Source of the DNA: Candidatus Omnitrophota bacterium
GTDB lineage: Bacteria > Omnitrophota > Omnitrophia > Omnitrophales > JACROU01
Length of the DNA: 6,961 nt
Assembly: GCA_029261035.1 (NCBI GenBank)
Contig: JAJDCD010000019.1
Span: forward strand, 1 to 6,961
Reading direction: 5' to 3'
Part shown: piece by piece, positions 1-6,961 of the stretch
Numbering within the stretch: position 1 is the first letter of the stretch
Layout: the number at the start of each line of letters is the position of its first letter
The notes under the pieces: model-generated
Database searches by the model: none
Told to the model about the DNA's origin: nothing
Seen by the model: only the letters and a program-made list of their open reading frames with translations
Translations under genes and position numbers: made by a program

Positions 1-1
1 A

Positions 2-154
2 GAGTTAGAGATCAGAAGAATAAGAGAGGCGGAATGGGAGCTCATCTTTAGGTATCGCCAAGAAGGAGGAGTGAAAGGAACAGGAAGGCTTTATTGGAAT
101 GGGAAAGAGTATGAAGGAGAAAAGGAGAGGGCGAAGAGAAATATAGAATTAGCC
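2..154 (+). repeat. Repeat unit A, type I, C-terminal half only (cut by window edge)
   Basis: These 51 residues match the second half of unit C codon for codon at an offset of exactly 717 bases, with scattered substitutions. The segment carries the type I hallmarks: a tryptophan-containing strand (EWELIF), the YRQEGG motif, the LYWNGKEYEGEK motif and a charged helix (ERAKRNIELAFKELE) that leads into the next unit. The first half lies before the window. The alternation of predicted strands with one terminal helix suggests a small beta-rich domain repeated along the chain. No known named repeat family is recognised. Confidence 0.93.
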
Positions 155-3100
155 TTTAAAGAATTAGAAGTTGGAAAGAGTCGAAGAATAGGAAATGTGA
201 ATAGTCTTATTAGGTTGTCTAATGGACAAATTTATAAAAAAAGCCTCCCTCAACCGGATGGCGGAGAAAATCCGAAGCTTATGACTTTTGGAGCTGGCAA
301 GAACTTAGAAAACGTAAACTTAACGATTCATAACGAATCCGGAAAATGGGTCTTAGAATTTAGATACCAAAAACAAGGAGAAGAAGATTTTCGTCCTGAG
401 CCTGCTCGCCTGCAATGGAATCCGGAACGCGGAGAATACGAACCATATGTGAAAGATACCCAACAAGCAGTATATGAATTTGATCCGGAAGCAGAAGGTT
501 TTAGTTTGGGAAAGCAAATAAATAAACAAACTCAAATGATGAAAATCGAAAAAGCCTTTAAAGAGTTAGAAGTTGGAGAGAGTCGAAGAATAGGCAATGT
601 GAATAGTCTCATTCATTTGTCTCAAGGCCAAATTAATAAAAAAAGTCTCCCTCAACCGGATGGGGGAGAAAACCCGAAGCGGAAGAGTTTTGGAGCTGGA
701 ACGAACTTAGAAGAGGTGGAGTTAGAGATCAGAAGAAAAAGTGAAACGGAATGGGAGCTCAACTTTAGTTATCGCCAAGAAGGAGGAATGGAAGGAGTTG
801 GAAGACTGTATTGGAATGGGAAAGAGTATGAAGGGGAAAAGGAGAGAGTGAAGAGGGAGATAGAATCAGCCTTTAAAGAGTTAGAAGAGGGAGAGAGTCG
901 AAGAGTAGGAAATGTGAATAGTCTTATTCATTTGTCTCAAGGCCAAATTCATAAGAAAAGCCTTCCTCAACCGGACGGGGGAGAAAACCCGAAGCGGAAG
1001 AGTTTTGGAGCTGGAACGAACTTAGAAAACGTAAACTTAACGATTCATAACGAAAACGGAAAATGGGTCTTAGAGTTTAGATACCAAAAGCAAGGAGAAG
1101 AAGCTTTTCGTCCTGAGCCTGCTCGCCTGCAATGGAATCCGGAACGCGGAGAATACGAACCCTATACAAAAGATACTCAACAGGAAGTGTATGAATTTGA
1201 TCCTCTTGAAGATGTTGAAGGCTTTTCATTAGGACAAAAAGAAGATGATGATGCGGAGAATGACAAAAAGATTGGAACGTTCAGAACGAGTGAGATTACG
1301 CATGAATTTGTGATGGAGCGAGGAGGGAGTATTCGGGTTGATAATCAGCCGACGGATCAGCATGGAGGGCTCTCTATTGCGGGTTTTCAAATATTTAAAA
1401 GCTCTCCTTATGAAAATCAGGATAATTTGTCGGTAGCCTTTTATGGTGGAAAGCCCTATAAGGTTTGGGTTGTTCATCCTCCAGACCTTGAAAAAGGTTT
1501 AAAGGAAAGAAGGGAGCAGATATGGGAGTCGACCGTTGCTGTTGAAAATCAAAATAAGAGAATTTTGAATAAGCTGAGAGAAGCCCCTGCTTTCGGTTTG
1601 ATGCAATTAGCTCACGGTCGTTATAACGAATTGTTAGACTTAATTTTAAATTCTCTTAAAGATTCCAATTTAACTTTATCTGAAGCGCAATTATATGCCT
1701 TCATTAAGTACTTCCAATCTTTGAATCTAGGTGAAGTTTATCAATCAACAGAAGGTGGAGGTGGTGGACGGCCCAGTTATTTGGATGTTTTGTCTGGTTT
1801 GCTTGAAAAGGCCGCTTTTTTTAGCAAGATGGATGAAAAGATGCAAGATTCTTATATCGATATCTATTTAAAACTTGTTTATAAGCAAATTATTACAGAC
1901 CCTGAATCTGCCCTTGAATTAATAGACACTCAAATAAAGTTTGTAAAAGAGCAGAAAGATGAAAGTGGAATATTGTTTTTAGAGCGCATTAGAAAAAGAA
2001 TTAAAGAAGATTATATTGATGCTCTAAAGGTGGAAGCAGTGCACATGAAGACAACCCCTTACCCTCATCAGAAAATTGGGAGCCATTTTCTTAAGACTCG
2101 AGAGCGAGCCTTTTTAGGAGATTTTACAGGGGCTGGTAAAACACTTGAGTTTTTAAATGCGTTGGACTCCCAGTGGAAAACGTTTGTGACAGTGCCTGCC
2201 AGTTTGATTGATAATATGTTGGAAGAAATTGATAATCATGTAAAACCCGGCACTTTTGAAGAAATTATCGTGCTCAGAGGGCCTCCATCGAAGAGAAAGA
2301 AATTGTTAGAAAGAGTTAGAGATAAGAAAAACATCATTATTATTTCTAGTATAGAAACACTCAGAAATTTTAAAAAACAAGACTTCGATGACATTAATCA
2401 CAATCTGGATTTATTTGTTTTAGATGAAAGCCAGTATGCTGCTAACTTTTCGGGTGAAGGTGCAAAATTAAATTCTCAGCAAGCGGAAGCAGTTCAAAAA
2501 GTTCGGCCAAAACGATCCTGGTGGATGTCCGCAACCCCATATTCCTCCAATCCTCAACAACTATTTGCCCTTTTAAAAGCAATGGGTGTTGAAAAACGGT
2601 CCTTTTCTGCCTTTAAACAAACTTATTCTAACTATTCCTTGGAAGATTTGCAGATGTTACGAGAGAAAATGAGAAGTATTGCATTGATTAGAGAACAAGA
2701 AGAGGTGTATGACTATTTTGACCCTGAACTGCCTTTACAAGAACAGCATGACCGAATCCCAAGAATGGTTTCTATACCTCCAGAAGAAGAAGGTTTCTAT
2801 TATTTATCGGAACAGCAAACGATTTATTATTTAGAGATGGTTAAAGATTTTAGGAAATTTGTGATCGAACGATATAACCCTTCTGTGCCTGAAGAACAAA
2901 AATTAGAAGAAAAATCCATTAACCCGATGACGAAGTTGCAATTCTTGTTTTATTTAATGGTAGATCCACGACGTGTTGGCTTGGATGAGGATTCTCCATT
3001 GATGAGAGAAGCAGAAAAAATAATAAAGAAAAGAAGAGATGAAGGGAAGAAAGGAATGTTGGTGACGAGCAACATTTTTATGATGGAAGCCTTGAAAGAT

Positions 3101-6100
3101 GTTTATGGAGAACAAATGGCGCGTATTGATGGGAGTGTTACGGGCTATGCAGTGGATTCGAAGGGGCACCCAATTAAAGTTAAGAGAGAAGATAGGGATT
3201 ATGTTATTGATGAAGAAAAGGGGAAGAAGGTAACAAATAAAACATGGCAAAAACATTTATTTCAGACAGATCCAGAGGTAACACTTGTTGGCGTTAATGA
3301 CCGGAGTGGAAGTGTTGGTTTGTCCATCACAGCTGCTGAGTTCTTGATGTATATGCAGTTACCACAAACCTATCCCAGAAAGCTGCAAACACGTGGGCGT
3401 CCCATACGACCTGATGATAAGAGAAAACGATATTTTGTAGATGAAGTTCATATGATTGCTCGTTTTGATCCGAAATTAATACAACGTTATGAAGGCACGG
3501 ATGACTTTAAGTATTTTGAGAAAGGAACACCTTCTGAACTTCAGATGAATCGACTTCAAGCAGGAGAAGAAAGATTTAAAATTTTAATGAGAGAAGGACG
3601 TTTGCAATCGGATGTGGATGAGGAGCTTTTAGAATCAGAAGGATTGATGAGTCAGATCCCAGGGTTTATGGATGATCCGCTAACAAAACAAGGAAAGTTG
3701 GTTCAGGATTATAGGGATGAGTTGAAAGATGTAGCTCGTGCTTTTCTGCCGCTTTATGAACAGGCAGAAAGTTTTGATCAAAAACAAGCAGTGCTGCAGA
3801 TGGCCTATTTGTATGCACGCAGTGGAAGTCAGCTCGATTTAAAAGAGATGGTTCAAAGTTTTAAAGAAATGAATTTTTTGCAATTTGACTTAGTTTCTAA
3901 GATAGCGGAGTTCCCCAATAAATACATACGACAAGAATGGATGGACCGTATACATCAAGTAGTGACACAGGTCTTCCCTACACAAGAAATCGATTTTGAA
4001 GACGTTAGAAATCAATTGGGGTGGCTTGAAGATTTAGCTCCTTGGTTAATTCTACCTATATACATGAGTGTTGAGGGCTGGGAAGAAGGAGGTGCTTTGT
4101 ATCATCTGAGCCAATTTATTAAAGAAGAGGTTGATCAAAGAAAAACCAAAGCTGAGAAAATAGCTTATTTGCAAAGCATCTTGTTGAGATTAAGTTCGAT
4201 TAGAAAAGGAGATTGGAGCTCTTTTAAAGAATTCATGGAATCAGTAGGAGATATTGAATCTGGAGAGCTGCATGATAAGGCGATCGATTTAAAAGAAAGA
4301 GCCCAATTGTTTAGTAAAGCAGTTCAAATTATTGGAGATACAGAAGCAAGGAAAATCTTACTCGATGTCTCTTCTGGTTTGTCATACTCAGCAAGAGTAG
4401 ATAAAGCTTACATGAACCTTTTAATGTCTACTTTTGATATCGAAGAACATGAAGCGGAAGAACTGAAATCATTTAATGCTTTGCGTATTGCCGTAGAAGT
4501 GATGAGGCGTCTTCATGAGGGAGGAGAAGAGTATTCTCAAGAACGAGCGGCATTCAAAGAAATTATGCTGCAGGTTGCTTATGAAACATTTTCGGATTGG
4601 CGCAATAAGCAAAACGATGTTCGTGATGAAGGAAAAGAAATAGATTATTTAAAGGACGAAAAATTCTTTTGGGAAGCATTTACACGCGGTGAGAAAGTTA
4701 AATTGGAAATGGGAGAAGTGGATTTTGAAGAAATAAAACAGTTACAGCTTTTAAAGGAGTTAGATGAGCTTCACAATGCTCTTTTGGAAGAAGATGCCAT
4801 TATTGTTGACCGAATCAGCGGGCCTTGGGTTCGAGAACAATGGAATAATTTAATTACAGGAAAGAGAGTGACTTTGTATAAAGAAGGACCTTTAAAGAAA
4901 TTAGCAAATAAAGTAATAAGAGCATATGAGAGACATAAAACATCTAAATCTGGATTAATTACATTTACAGAAGCAGATTTAAAGCTTTTAGAAGAGCATG
5001 GAATAACCTTGCCTTCGCAAGAACAAATAATGTTTGAAACTAAAAAATTTGATTTTGCCAGAGCCCCTCCTGATGAGGCCGAAATGTTTACCCAAGTGTT
5101 AAATTTGAGGTTAGACGAAATAAACACATTAAATAATTTAATCCGTTTAGAGAATACTTATCTGAGTATTATGAAAAGAGGCTTTACACCTAAGAATGCC
5201 AGTGAATTAAAAAAACTGTTCACAAAACTGAATTTTAACAGTGAAGCTAAAGACAAGTTAGACTTTATAGATGACCAAATACGGCTTATAGATAAACAGC
5301 TTTCTATACTAAGCCGAACACGCAAATTTAAAGAAGTGGAAATAGAATTCACGACAGACCCCGCCAAGTTGTTGATGAGAGGAATGATGGTTCCTCAACT
5401 CACAAACTGTTTTAACTGTTTCGCCGGAGCAAATACAGTTAGGGCCTTGGTAGATGATTTAGGTTCTAGAAATAAACTCTTGGCGATCGTTCGAGTAGGT
5501 GGAAAACCGCGTTCTATTGCTATTGTCAAAGTGCTTAAAGATGCAAATGGTCAACCTGTGATTTTTTTGGAAAAACCTTTGTATTTGGGAGGGTACCCCT
5601 TTCAAGATGAAATTCTAAAAGCTCTTTCTAATCTAAAAATGAGGACCTTATCTCGTTTTGGCGCTCACTTAGCAATTGAAGCGGCGGGGAAGGCGGGAAG
5701 AACTCGTCTTTATGGAACAGGCAGTTACTCTAATAGAGAATATTTTGAACCTTTATTTGGTTCTCGCAGCTACGATTATGCCGTTTATCATGGCGGTAAG
5801 ATTATTCACCCAGAAATTTTAGATCCCTCTAGTCAATCAAAAGAACCTTATAAACCTATGTTTACTATAGGATATCAAGGGCTGAATGTAGATCAGTTTA
5901 TTCAAAAATTAAGAGACAATGGAGTGCAGGTCTTAGTTGATGCTCGTTTTAGCCCATTCAGTCAATATAAGACAGATTTCAATAGAGAGAATAGCAAATT
6001 AAGGGAAGAGCTAAAAGAAATTGATTACGTTCACGAGAAAGATTTGGGAGCACCCAAATCAATTCGGCAGATAGAAGAAAAAGAAGGTTTGGCTGCTTTT

Positions 6101-6961
6101 CATGTTGCCTATCAAAAACATCTAGAACAGCAAACGGAAGCTAAAGAACGTCTGCTCGAACTCGCCAAGACGAAGCGAATAGCGCTTATGTGTTTAGAAA
6201 AGAGCGTCCACGAATGTCACCGTCAAGATATAGCCCAATGGTTCATGACCCAACAACCCACCCCCATCGGCTTCGAAGAAATCCGCCAACAAAACTCTGT
6301 CTCTGCTAGCAGTTTGGGCGTACAGATGAGTAAAGAGATTCAAATGATGAAAATATCAAAAGCGTTTAAGGAGTTAGAAGAAGGAGAGGTGGAAAGACTA
6401 GGGAAAGTGAATGAGCTTATTTTATTGTCTCAAGGACAAATAAAGGAAAAAACACTTCCGCAACCGGATGGAGGAATTCGTGAGAAGCCAATGAGTTTTG
6501 GAGCAGTAAATAATTTAGAGTGGGTGGAATTAGAGATGGAAAGATTAGAAGGTGGAGAATGGGAGTTGAGATTTAAGTATCAGGGAAAAAGCGGAAAGAG
6601 TGGAGAGAGCACGCTTTATTGGAATGGGAAGGAATATGAAAGAGAGAAGGAGAGAGTGGAGAGAAAGATAAGAGAAGTGTTTAAGGAGTTAGAAGAAGGA
6701 GAGGTGAGAAGAATAGGGAAAGTGAATGAGCTTATTATATTGTCTGGTGGACAAATAAAGAAAAAAACACTTCCGCAACCTAATGGAGGAATTCGTCAGA
6801 AGTTAATGAGTTTTGGAGCGGTAAATAATTTAGAGTGGGTGGAATTAGAGGTAGAAAGAATAGAAGGAGGAGAATGGGAGTTGAGATTTAAGTATCAGGG
6901 AGAAAGCGGAAAGATTGGAGATGGCACGCTTTATTGGAATGGGAAGGAATATGAAAGAGAG
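2..6961 (+). CDS. Giant repeat protein with SNF2-like helicase and DUF488 domains (internal fragment, open at both ends)
   Basis: One frame runs through the whole window without a stop: 2320 codons, with neither start nor stop codon inside. Residue numbers in this annotation count from position 2. Order of parts: repeats (1-411), acidic linker (412-423), beta module (424-494), helical part (495-680), SNF2-like helicase (681-1200), long helical part (1201-1777), cysteine-bearing alpha/beta domain (1778-1941), DUF488 (1953-2097), linker, repeats (2122-2320). In-frame repeats on both sides and intact motifs throughout show that it is one real gene and not a chain of decayed ones. No transmembrane segment is visible, and the only four cysteines lie in the two C-terminal domains, which fits a cytoplasmic protein, although a signal peptide could lie upstream. 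The likely role is ATP-dependent work on nucleic acid; partner and pathway are unknown. Alternatives are a phage or conjugative-element polyvalent protein, or a giant gene of an uncultured lineage such as Omnitrophota. Confidence 0.97.
155..556 (+). repeat. Repeat unit B, type II (134 residues including exit linker)
   Basis: The unit opens with the shared signature FKELE...SRRIGNVNSLI, then NGQIYKKSLPQPDGGENP and a FGAGKNLE strand. The second half differs from type I: NVNLTIHNESGKWVLEFRYQ, then the FRPEPARLQWNPERGEYEPY motif in place of LYWNGKEYE, and a closing segment VYEFDPEAEGFSLG. The last 18 residues (from 503) are the linker SLGKQINKQTQMMKIEKA that joins it to unit C. The second half is nearly identical at DNA level to that of unit D (about 13 differences over 180 bases, 304-483 against 1021-1200, counted by eye). 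Confidence 0.95.
503..559 (+). other. Inter-repeat linker, SLG...QMMKI...KAF type (left copy)
   Basis: Nineteen codons from SLGKQINK to the KAF that starts the next unit. The same linker, of the same length and with the same landmarks (SLG, Q at position 5, K at 8, QMMKI, KAF), recurs at 6311-6367 after the DUF488 domain. It is the expected joint after a type II unit and marks a natural module boundary in the protein. Confidence 0.85.
557..871 (+). repeat. Repeat unit C, complete type I (105 residues)
   Basis: This is the only complete type I copy on the left side. Its first half has FKELEVGESRRIGNVNSLI, SQGQINKKSLPQPDGGENP and SFGAGTNLE; its second half has EVELEIRRKSETEWELNF, YRQEGG, LYWNGKEYEGEK and the helix ERVKREIESA. 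Bases 662-712 are identical to 977-1027 in unit D (51 bases), so the first halves of type I and type II units share a very recent common source. The 105-residue length equals that of unit E on the far side of the enzymatic block. Confidence 0.95.
872..1234 (+). repeat. Repeat unit D, type II, last repeat before the enzymatic block
   Basis: The first half reads FKELEEGESRRVGNVNSLI, SQGQIHKKSLPQPDGGENP, SFGAGTNLE and is closest to unit C. The second half reads NVNLTIHNENGKWVLEFRYQ, RPEPARLQWNPERGEYEPY and closes with VYEFDPLEDVEGFSLG, closest to unit B. It therefore looks like a mosaic of its neighbours. Unlike unit B, it is not followed by the QMMKI linker: after SLG the chain enters an acidic spacer (QKEDDDAENDKK) and then non-repeat sequence. 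Confidence 0.94.
1271..1483 (+). other. Small beta-rich module, possible diverged repeat unit
   Basis: About 71 residues (424-494) lie between the acidic linker and the helical part. Visible strands include THEFVMERGGSIRV, GLSIAGFQIF, NLSVAFYGGKPYKVWVV. The order resembles the repeat units: KIGT in place of RVGN, GGSIRVDNQPTDQHGG in place of GQIHKKSLPQPDGG, and FYGGKPYKV in place of YWNGKEYEG. This suggests a degenerate repeat capping the array or forming the front of the enzymatic block. No named domain is recognised. The module boundaries are clear; the homology is an inference from motif order and not a computed alignment. Confidence 0.45.
1484..2041 (+). other. Alpha-helical segment with five-glycine spacer, upstream of helicase
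   Basis: Residues 495-680 are rich in Leu, Lys and Glu with heptad-like stretches (KERREQIWESTVAVENQNKR, NELLDLILNSLKDSNL, LERIRKRIKEDYIDALKVEA). A glycine run (GGGGG at 1754-1768) breaks the segment into two helical bundles and probably acts as a flexible hinge. No catalytic motif is seen. The position directly before the helicase suggests an accessory domain that couples the repeat scaffold to the motor. No family is recognised. Confidence 0.6.
2042..3601 (+). other. SNF2-like superfamily 2 helicase/ATPase core
   Basis: About 520 residues (681-1200) hold all the expected SF2 motifs in order. PYPHQKIGSHFL stands in the place of the SNF2 entry motif; Walker A is GDFTGAGKT (2117-2143); motif Ia is VPASLIDNM; then IIIISSIETLRNF; Walker B is LDESQ (DESQ at 2423-2434); motif III is MSATPYSSNPQQLFALLKAM (SATP at 2528-2539). 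The second lobe has KGMLVTSNIFMMEAL, IDGS (3125-3136), motif V SGSVGLSITAAE (3305-3340) and motif VI QTRGRPIRP (3386-3412). SNF2 proteins couple ATP hydrolysis to translocation on duplex DNA, usually remodelling protein-DNA complexes and seldom unwinding strands. All catalytic residues appear present, so the motor should be active. Walker A (TGAGKT, not MGLGKT) and Walker B (DESQ, not DEGH or DEAH) are atypical, so assignment to a subfamily is uncertain. Confidence 0.9.
3602..5332 (+). other. Long alpha-helical region without a recognised domain
   Basis: About 577 residues (1201-1777) are almost wholly helix-forming, with short loops and conspicuous aromatics (EDLAPWLILPIYMSVEGW near 4028-4081, REQWNNLITGKRV near 4832-4870). 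No repeat period is obvious by eye. The last part, about 5066-5320, has a coiled-coil look (VLNLRLDEINTLNNLIRLEN and DFIDDQIRLIDKQLSILS). It contains no cysteine and no catalytic motif that I can name. It lies between motor and C-terminal domains and may be a large helical scaffold, a regulatory arm, or several diverged domains. The function is unknown. Confidence 0.6.
5333..5824 (+). other. Cysteine-bearing alpha/beta domain, possibly GNAT-like
   Basis: Residues 1778-1941 start with EVEIEFTTDPAKLLMRG, followed by TNCFNCFAGANTVRAL with two cysteines spaced CxxC (codons at 5408 and 5417). Three strands follow (NKLLAIVRVGG, PRSIAIVKVL, PVIFLEKPLYLGG), then a helix (LSRFGAHLAIEAAGKAG), a strand with a GTG turn (TRLYGTGSYSNREYFEPLF) and a final strand (YDYAVYHGG). 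The strand-strand-strand-helix-strand-helix-strand order resembles GNAT acetyltransferases, but the usual acetyl-CoA loop (R/Q-x-x-G-x-G/A) is not clear. An opening of the form TDP..LLxxG followed by a cysteine cluster and NK also recalls an uncharacterised domain seen in other large bacterial proteins; that is a recollection, not a search result. Confidence 0.5.
5858..6292 (+). other. DUF488 domain
   Basis: About 145 residues (1953-2097) match the DUF488 family closely: opening MFTIGYQGLNVDQFIQKL, the acidic-Arg motif LVDARFSP (usual form VDVRxxP, 5939-5956), YVHEKDLGAP (usual Y-x-H-x-x-x-LGG), then LLELAKTKRIALMCLEKSVHECHRQDIA, whose MCLEK and CHR elements are the family signature (cysteines at 6191 and 6215), and a closing PIGFEEIR. 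The length is close to a usual stand-alone DUF488 protein, and all the conserved residues look intact. The biochemical function of DUF488 is not established; conserved Asp-Arg and Cys-His-Arg suggest an enzyme. Fusion behind an SNF2-like motor suggests action on nucleic acid or on a motor-bound substrate. The methionine at 5858 lacks an upstream Shine-Dalgarno, so this is a domain and not a separate gene. Confidence 0.92.
6311..6364 (+). other. Inter-repeat linker, SLG...QMMKI...KA type (right copy)
   Basis: After DUF488 and a short QQNSVSAS stretch the chain reads SLGVQMSKEIQMMKISKA and then enters a repeat unit. Through KAF it has the same 19-codon length as the left linker at 503-559 and the same fixed points. 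The repeat array therefore resumes at precisely the kind of joint that normally follows a type II unit. Confidence 0.85.
6365..6679 (+). repeat. Repeat unit E, type I (105 residues)
   Basis: This complete type I unit after the enzymatic block has the same 105-residue length as unit C. Landmarks are FKELEEGEVERLGKVNELI, SQGQIKEKTLPQPDGG, SFGAVNNLEWVELE, EWELRFKYQGKSG, LYWNGKEYEREK and the helix ERVERKIREV. It belongs to a distinct subgroup from A and C (GKVNEL in place of GNVNSL, IREKPMSFGAVNN in place of ENPKRKSFGAGTN), so left and right arrays have diverged separately. Confidence 0.95.
6680..6961 (+). repeat. Repeat unit F, type I (94 residues, cut by window edge)
   Basis: This is a direct tandem copy of unit E at a 315-base period. 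By hand count there are about 22 base differences over the 282 bases that overlap, affecting 17 codons, of which about 14 change the amino acid. Landmarks are FKELEEGEVRRIGKVNELI, GGQIKKKTLPQPNGG, SFGAVNNLEWVELE and LYWNGKEYERE. Here type I follows type I directly, without an intervening type II unit, unlike on the left. The array clearly continues beyond the window. Confidence 0.95.

Follow-up and report, generated by a model that had tools for sequence, protein, structure and literature searches.

Introduction

Giant open reading frames (ORFs) are a hallmark of the Omnitrophota, and they raise the question of whether each product functions as one chain and in what role. Such ORFs have already been described (PMC10066038, PMC12057145). 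The sections of Seymour et al. 2023 (PMC10066038) drawn on here report an ORF of 39,678 amino acids (aa) in Velamenicoccus archaeovorus LiM, for which proteome data exist, and ORFs longer than 20 kb, the threshold used there for a giant single ORF, in 20 of 23 Omnitrophia genomes, and propose that the products are adhesins or coat proteins. Here we describe a 6,961-bp stretch of DNA (the window) that makes up the entire contig C11 of a 26-contig, 2.7-Mb Omnitrophota metagenome-assembled genome. An earlier inspection of its letters (the sequence-only reading) had regarded proteins of this size with a helicase core as rare in bacteria; since giant ORFs are common in the phylum, that view has to be corrected, and the window's size by itself is ordinary. 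The window is like the ORFs of PMC10066038 in phylum, probable giant frame, putative export-type features and scarcity of annotated domains, but the domains named in those sections are of adhesin or coat type, whereas here we found an SNF2-type motor together with DUF488, hypervariable repeat arrays, a leader-domain family and separator peptides. We put the probability at roughly one half that the window comes from the interior of a giant mosaic protein that is exported and belongs to a large Omnitrophota family, with an intact SNF2-type motor, a helical arm, an orphan cysteine domain and DUF488 lying between repeat arrays. The open frame, the motor with its key motifs, DUF488, the arrays of ~105-aa units, the separators and a relative with a contiguous arrangement were all observed directly.

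The window is one open frame encoding an SNF2-type motor and DUF488

One frame of the window runs without a stop for 2,320 codons and is open at both ends, as the sequence-only reading had stated (Table 1). Codon-position GC is coding-like throughout, the chance of such a stop-free run at the window's composition is ~1e-81, and no rival ORF longer than 118 aa is present in the window. A hidden Markov model (HMM) of the ~105-aa repeat unit places a cut unit at each edge of C11, so the earlier claim that repeats run off both ends is also borne out. Because C11 is complete at 6,961 bp, the frame cannot be extended in place. The window had no Rfam match, and neither promoter-like nor terminator-like sites were over-represented in it; scans of its frame gave nothing above cutoff with NCBIfam and weak matches to families of unknown function with PHROGs.

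Profile searches of each segment, which the sequence-only reading had proposed, identified an SNF2-related domain and DUF488. The order of modules that it had given (SNF2-like motor, helical arm, cysteine domain, DUF488, repeats) was right. The motor matched the Pfam SNF2-related domain at 53.5 bits (cutoff 24.9, E 2.6e-14) and contains GAGKT (aa 710-714), DESQ (808-811), SAT (843-845) and QTRGRPIR (1129-1136), corresponding to motifs I (Walker A), II, III and VI (arginine finger). Its profile matched ISWI, Rad54-like and INO80 chains with E values down to 3e-25, in many of them over two stretches. By profile and motifs it is an SNF2 family ATPase, with predicted DNA-stimulated ATPase or translocase activity. 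The element that follows it, YFEKGTPSELQMNRLQAGEERFKILM, is conserved in relatives, and we take it to resemble the SNF2 brace. A related SNF2 motor is also found in a 1,497-aa stand-alone protein (L041 6857-11350) on a contig labelled Micrarchaeota, together with ~80-aa N-terminal repeats of a different kind; transfer between symbiotic lineages and mis-binning are both possible origins.

DUF488 matched its Pfam profile over nearly its full length (positions 2-120 of 121) at 81.2 bits (cutoff 22.2, E 1.2e-22). DUF488 matches in Omnitrophota lie mostly in short ORFs (133-257 aa); in giant ORFs we found them here and in genomes G001 and G304. The pre-motor region is unassigned, with no Pfam match, no relatives of the helical arm were found in the window's own genome, and searches of 47 genomes from the order, of viral contigs and of PDB sequences gave no significant relative for the cysteine domain. 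A single-sequence structural model of the cysteine domain is of low confidence (predicted local distance difference test, pLDDT, 39), and its GNAT-like order of elements is a hint only.

Contigs C26 and C15 probably flank the window

The full protein had been expected to exceed 2,320 residues, and this is supported by matching, correctly oriented arrays at the left end of each of the contigs C26 and C15. Elsewhere in the genome the ~105-aa repeats occur only at these two ends, at the right end of C26 and as diverged copies deeper in C15. Read in reverse, C26 encodes an N-terminal frame with a signal-like segment and a ~500-aa leader domain, followed by two repeat units at the contig end. On C15, the units continue up to a cap unit; then come 14 diverged units that form a second array and a C-terminal region, after which the frame stops. 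Repeats at the contig ends agree at 92-95%, short of identity, and so probably represent distinct units of shared arrays, with further units possibly missing between them. The 5' neighbor of C11 is probably C26 and its 3' neighbor C15. With minimal gaps, C26, C11 and C15 together would encode ~5,590 codons, or at least 16.7 kb plus any repeat gaps (C11 alone is 6.96 kb), and the whole gene probably comprises at least 5.5k codons. The order C26-C11 is supported by a relative, RA.bin19 (G015), in which leader, six repeats and SNF2 motor lie uninterrupted in one 3,487-aa ORF; a second relative, RIFOXYB12_FULL_50_7 (G042), also has the repeat-SNF2 order.

These comparisons bear on whether C11 might be a chimera of repeat-bearing fragments, a concern of the sequence-only reading, or a piece of a decaying gene. 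C11 does end within repeats, and C15 carries two stops (see below), but the 2,320-codon frame is unbroken with coding periodicity, aa 394-2117 are non-repeat sequence in that single frame, and G+C is equal among the three contigs (38.5% in C11, 38.3% in C15 and 37.9% in C26). Since the placement of SNF2 after repeats recurs in independent genomes, the window is neither a one-off nor a chimera, and we regard an assembly artefact or a decaying gene as very improbable.

Two other features of the flanking contigs were observed. The C15 frame contains at ~aa 590-655 the stretch NIVTPDLIDGSLPTGRQAESSDKQDSRFRGND, with a similar stretch after aa 2170; these look like a dispersed repeat element that has entered a module joint without breaking the frame. 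At the right end of C26 (L030 14051-19999), another giant frame encodes a paralogous array of repeats, a membrane segment and helical modules, which end in EWLDxxxAxSLG joints.

A leader domain defines a family of giant ORFs

Searching the window's genome with a profile of the leader domain (~450-500 aa) gave 55 matches, which fall in 45 distinct ORFs, 503-16,199 codons long, on C3, C4, C15, C16, C18, C20, C21, C24 and C26. Added by hand, these ORFs amount to ~140,000 codons, or ~15% of the genome. The leader has no Pfam or PDB match, and sequence comparisons lent no support to our initial guess of a Tiki/ChaN-like domain. In a single-sequence search it was found in 142 of 285 sampled Omnitrophota genomes. 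Among the leader ORFs examined, 12/15 have a hydrophobic signal-like segment at the N-terminus above the cut used. The leader sits upstream of matching repeats on C26 and is contiguous with repeats in RA.bin19; with C26 joined to C11 on this basis, the N-terminus of the window's protein is likely an export-signal-plus-leader domain. Giant ORFs carry cytosolic-type enzymes, including methyltransferases, a histidine-kinase-type ATPase domain, an HD domain, acetyltransferases, sigma-70 region 2 and a glycosyltransferase. One giant ORF on contig C5 of G065 (L109 9263-19999) has sigma-70 region 2, HATPase and a methyltransferase domain in a single frame.

Alternatively, the window could encode a cytosolic DNA remodelling or defence protein, in which the repeats recognise foreign DNA, SNF2 translocates and DUF488 is the effector, the 1,497-aa protein described above being its free form. 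That protein indeed has neither leader nor separators, and the candidate defence models PDC-M19A/M45 of PADLOC match the window (E 7e-29). They match the DUF488 part alone, however, no defence-gene context is visible on C11, and the N-terminus that C26 would supply has a signal-like segment. We consider this explanation unlikely.

Repeat units vary at the same few positions

The sequence-only reading was right that repeats are present, but they are not anonymous: they form a recurring unit with hypervariable positions and cap units, and diverged copies lie in other giant ORFs of the phylum. We compared three arrays, one shared by the 3' end of C11 and C15 (A), where the units continuing on C15 are ~90% identical, one shared by C26 and the 5' end of C11 (B), and one at the right end of C26 (C). 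In all three, units hardly differ outside positions 24, 27, 31/32, 46 and 53. The ratio of nonsynonymous to synonymous polymorphism (pN/pS) at the hypervariable positions was 2.13, 1.14 and 1.94 in the three arrays, compared with 0.40, 0.31 and 0.33 in the rest of the first 58 codons, and the overlap of positions among arrays was reached in 0 of 100,000 random re-pairings. Two arrays of another genus were highly variable at matching columns, and with arrays of that genus included, columns 18, 21, 25, 39 and 46 also ranked high. From these comparisons the hypervariable positions appear to be under diversifying selection, and the repeats resemble a modular recognition array.

AlphaFold modelled two tandem units as a helix plus beta sheet (pLDDT 86; predicted template modelling score, pTM, 0.80), with the hypervariable residues within or bordering an irregular segment that comes after the first strand and before the main sheet (model residues ~23-58). 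VIA-align returned Whirly/PUR nucleic-acid binders at Z 4-5, a level that may reflect only a common arrangement. Pfam matches to DUF7407, BrxC_4th and DUF4845 covered only 28-38 residues each and were dismissed as compositional.

The repeat family occurs in 12 of 384 Omnitrophota genomes, mostly inside long frames, and in other genomes adjoins unrelated enzymes (methyltransferase, HD, GNAT). This last observation would also fit surface adhesin or spacer repeats whose variation reflects antigenic escape or receptor diversification, the enzymes being passengers in a structural coat protein. The export-signal-like N-termini of the leader ORFs, a repeat model that is beta-rich rather than helix-turn-helix and the proposals in the cited sections of PMC10066038 point the same way. 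Against it, the same few positions vary across separate arrays while the rest is strongly constrained, and the motor motifs are intact though a passive coat would not need them; we judge a purely structural role possible but doubtful.

Short separator peptides lie between modules

Modules of the giant ORFs are divided by lineage-specific separators, SLG in the window's family and R[SA]ExR in two sister families. In a 14,273-aa ORF of G021 (C48), exact RSELR occurs 15 times where ~0.04 copies are expected, and R[SA]ExR, which has hydrophilic flanks, occurs 24 times per 17,230 aa of giant ORFs and once per 30,146 aa of normal ORFs in the same genome (Fisher p 5e-10). SLG is similarly enriched in giant ORFs of G001 (19 per 11,492 aa vs 11 per 29,563 aa, p 6e-5) and G000 (27 per 18,807 aa vs 2 per 6,192 aa, p 0.03); C11 has three copies against 0.9 expected, and because the motif is short, single copies prove little. 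Placement outside domains is stronger evidence than SLG counts: in mapped stretches, 0/40 separators fall inside a leader, repeat or Pfam domain, with 10.2 expected (0 of 20,000 trials). In G001, DUF488 and TPR are flanked on both sides by SLG. The separator codons vary between copies, which led us to reject an origin of the separators as DNA recombination scars. They are candidates for a polyprotein processing or joint motif.

Table 1. Features of the window (C11), with positions in the 2,320-codon frame
Feature	Residues (aa)	Bases	Strand	Basis
Single ORF, both ends open, 2,320 codons		2..6961	+	ORF scan, codon-position composition
Array 1: cut unit (1-47), cap-type unit (48-154)	1-154	2..463	+	unit HMM
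Separator SLG, ...DPEAEGFSLG	168-170	503..511	+	
Array 2: full unit (182-286), cap-type unit (287-393)	182-393	545..1180	+	unit HMM
Separator SLG	409-411	1226..1234	+	
Pre-motor region, beta-rich then helical	412-680	1235..2041	+	secondary structure read from the sequence alone
SNF2-type ATPase motor, two lobes	689-1170	2066..3511	+	Pfam, motifs, profile
Post-motor element YFEKGTPSELQMNRLQAGEERFKILM	1171-1196	3512..3589	+	
Helical arm, ~580 aa	1200-1780	3599..5341	+	
Orphan cysteine-containing domain	1785-1955	5354..5866	+	
DUF488, C...ECHR motif (2064-2074)	1963-2080	5888..6241	+	Pfam
Separator SLG, SASSLGVQM	2104-2106	6311..6319	+	
Array 3: full unit (2118-2222), cut unit (2223-2320)	2118-2320	6353..6961	+	unit HMM

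A proposed model for an exported enzyme module

Near-identical units that differ at about five apparently diversifying positions make it probable that individual units contact different features of a modular target, with the array conferring specificity. The flanking arrays may dock the ~1,700-aa module on that target. The SNF2 motor would translocate along double-stranded DNA, or remodel it, at the expense of ATP, and DUF488 would supply a second activity. The N-terminal signal probably exports the chain, in which case the motor would be active in another cell, be it partner, host or prey, and draw on ATP from there; we infer delivery into such a cell. The separators would lie at the joints of modules, and cleavage there may set modules free. 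In its most extended form, which we consider speculative and improbable, ~15% of the genome would be devoted to exported giant polyproteins cut at SLG or R[SA]ExR, one mRNA would deliver many enzymes, target-programmed ones included, to a partner or prey, and the arrays would follow a residue-level recognition code.

Several points weigh against our preferred reading of an exported mosaic protein, and its weakest links are the export of an ATP-driven motor, which is odd unless the protein is delivered into a cell, and the putative cleavage of the separators; neither a protease nor evidence of cleavage was identified. The C26-C11-C15 join was drawn from the repeats and the relative's order, not read through. 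On C15 (~401-415, ~410 bp from the edge), the first full unit contains an in-frame TAA and TGA within 12 bases, which may reflect either misassembly or a genuine end or truncation. The hypervariable codons were picked in array A on the same data, so that B and C serve as the tests; these have few units, and the ratio for B is just 1.14. The other four AlphaFold repeat models were poorer (67-50), Foldseek of the repeat model gave no match at E<=0.001, and its best VIA-align hit, the HSP70 substrate-binding domain, was not significant (Z 5.5). With a single decent model and no significant fold match, any DNA-binding surface of the repeats is putative.

Comparison with known systems

The sequence-only interpretation is partly supported. 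Its view that the architecture is unlike any described agrees with our searches, which found no match; in a literature search that covered part of the giant-gene literature, and is therefore weak on absences, neither the architecture nor the diversifying repeats, leader family or separators turned out to have been described, and no paper named both SNF2 and Omnitrophota. Through the shared leader, lineage-specific separators and fixed hypervariable repeat positions, the question of how giant ORFs work becomes directly testable.

With viral-type polyproteins, the window's chain shares multiple enzyme modules and a short peptide recurring at their joints, but it is bacterial, its separator cleavage is putative and it has no identified cognate protease. 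Its DUF488 has the full-length domain and C...CHR motif of other DUF488 proteins (PF04343; PADLOC PDC-M19A), set here in a giant ORF. Like TALE repeats, the arrays consist of near-identical tandem units that differ at few fixed residues and end in a distinct cap unit; TALE units are helical and 33-35 aa long, whereas those of the window are ~105 aa and beta-rich in the model, with no known sequence relation, so that the arrays at most work like TALE repeats and are not members of that family. Finally, the motor shares the two-lobe organization and the GxGKT, DExx, SAT and QxxGRxxR motifs with SNF2/Swi2/Rad54 ATPases such as the Sulfolobus Rad54-like protein (1z63) and ISWI (5jxr), but it has DESQ in place of the usual DEAH/DEGH box and is embedded between repeat arrays in a giant frame.
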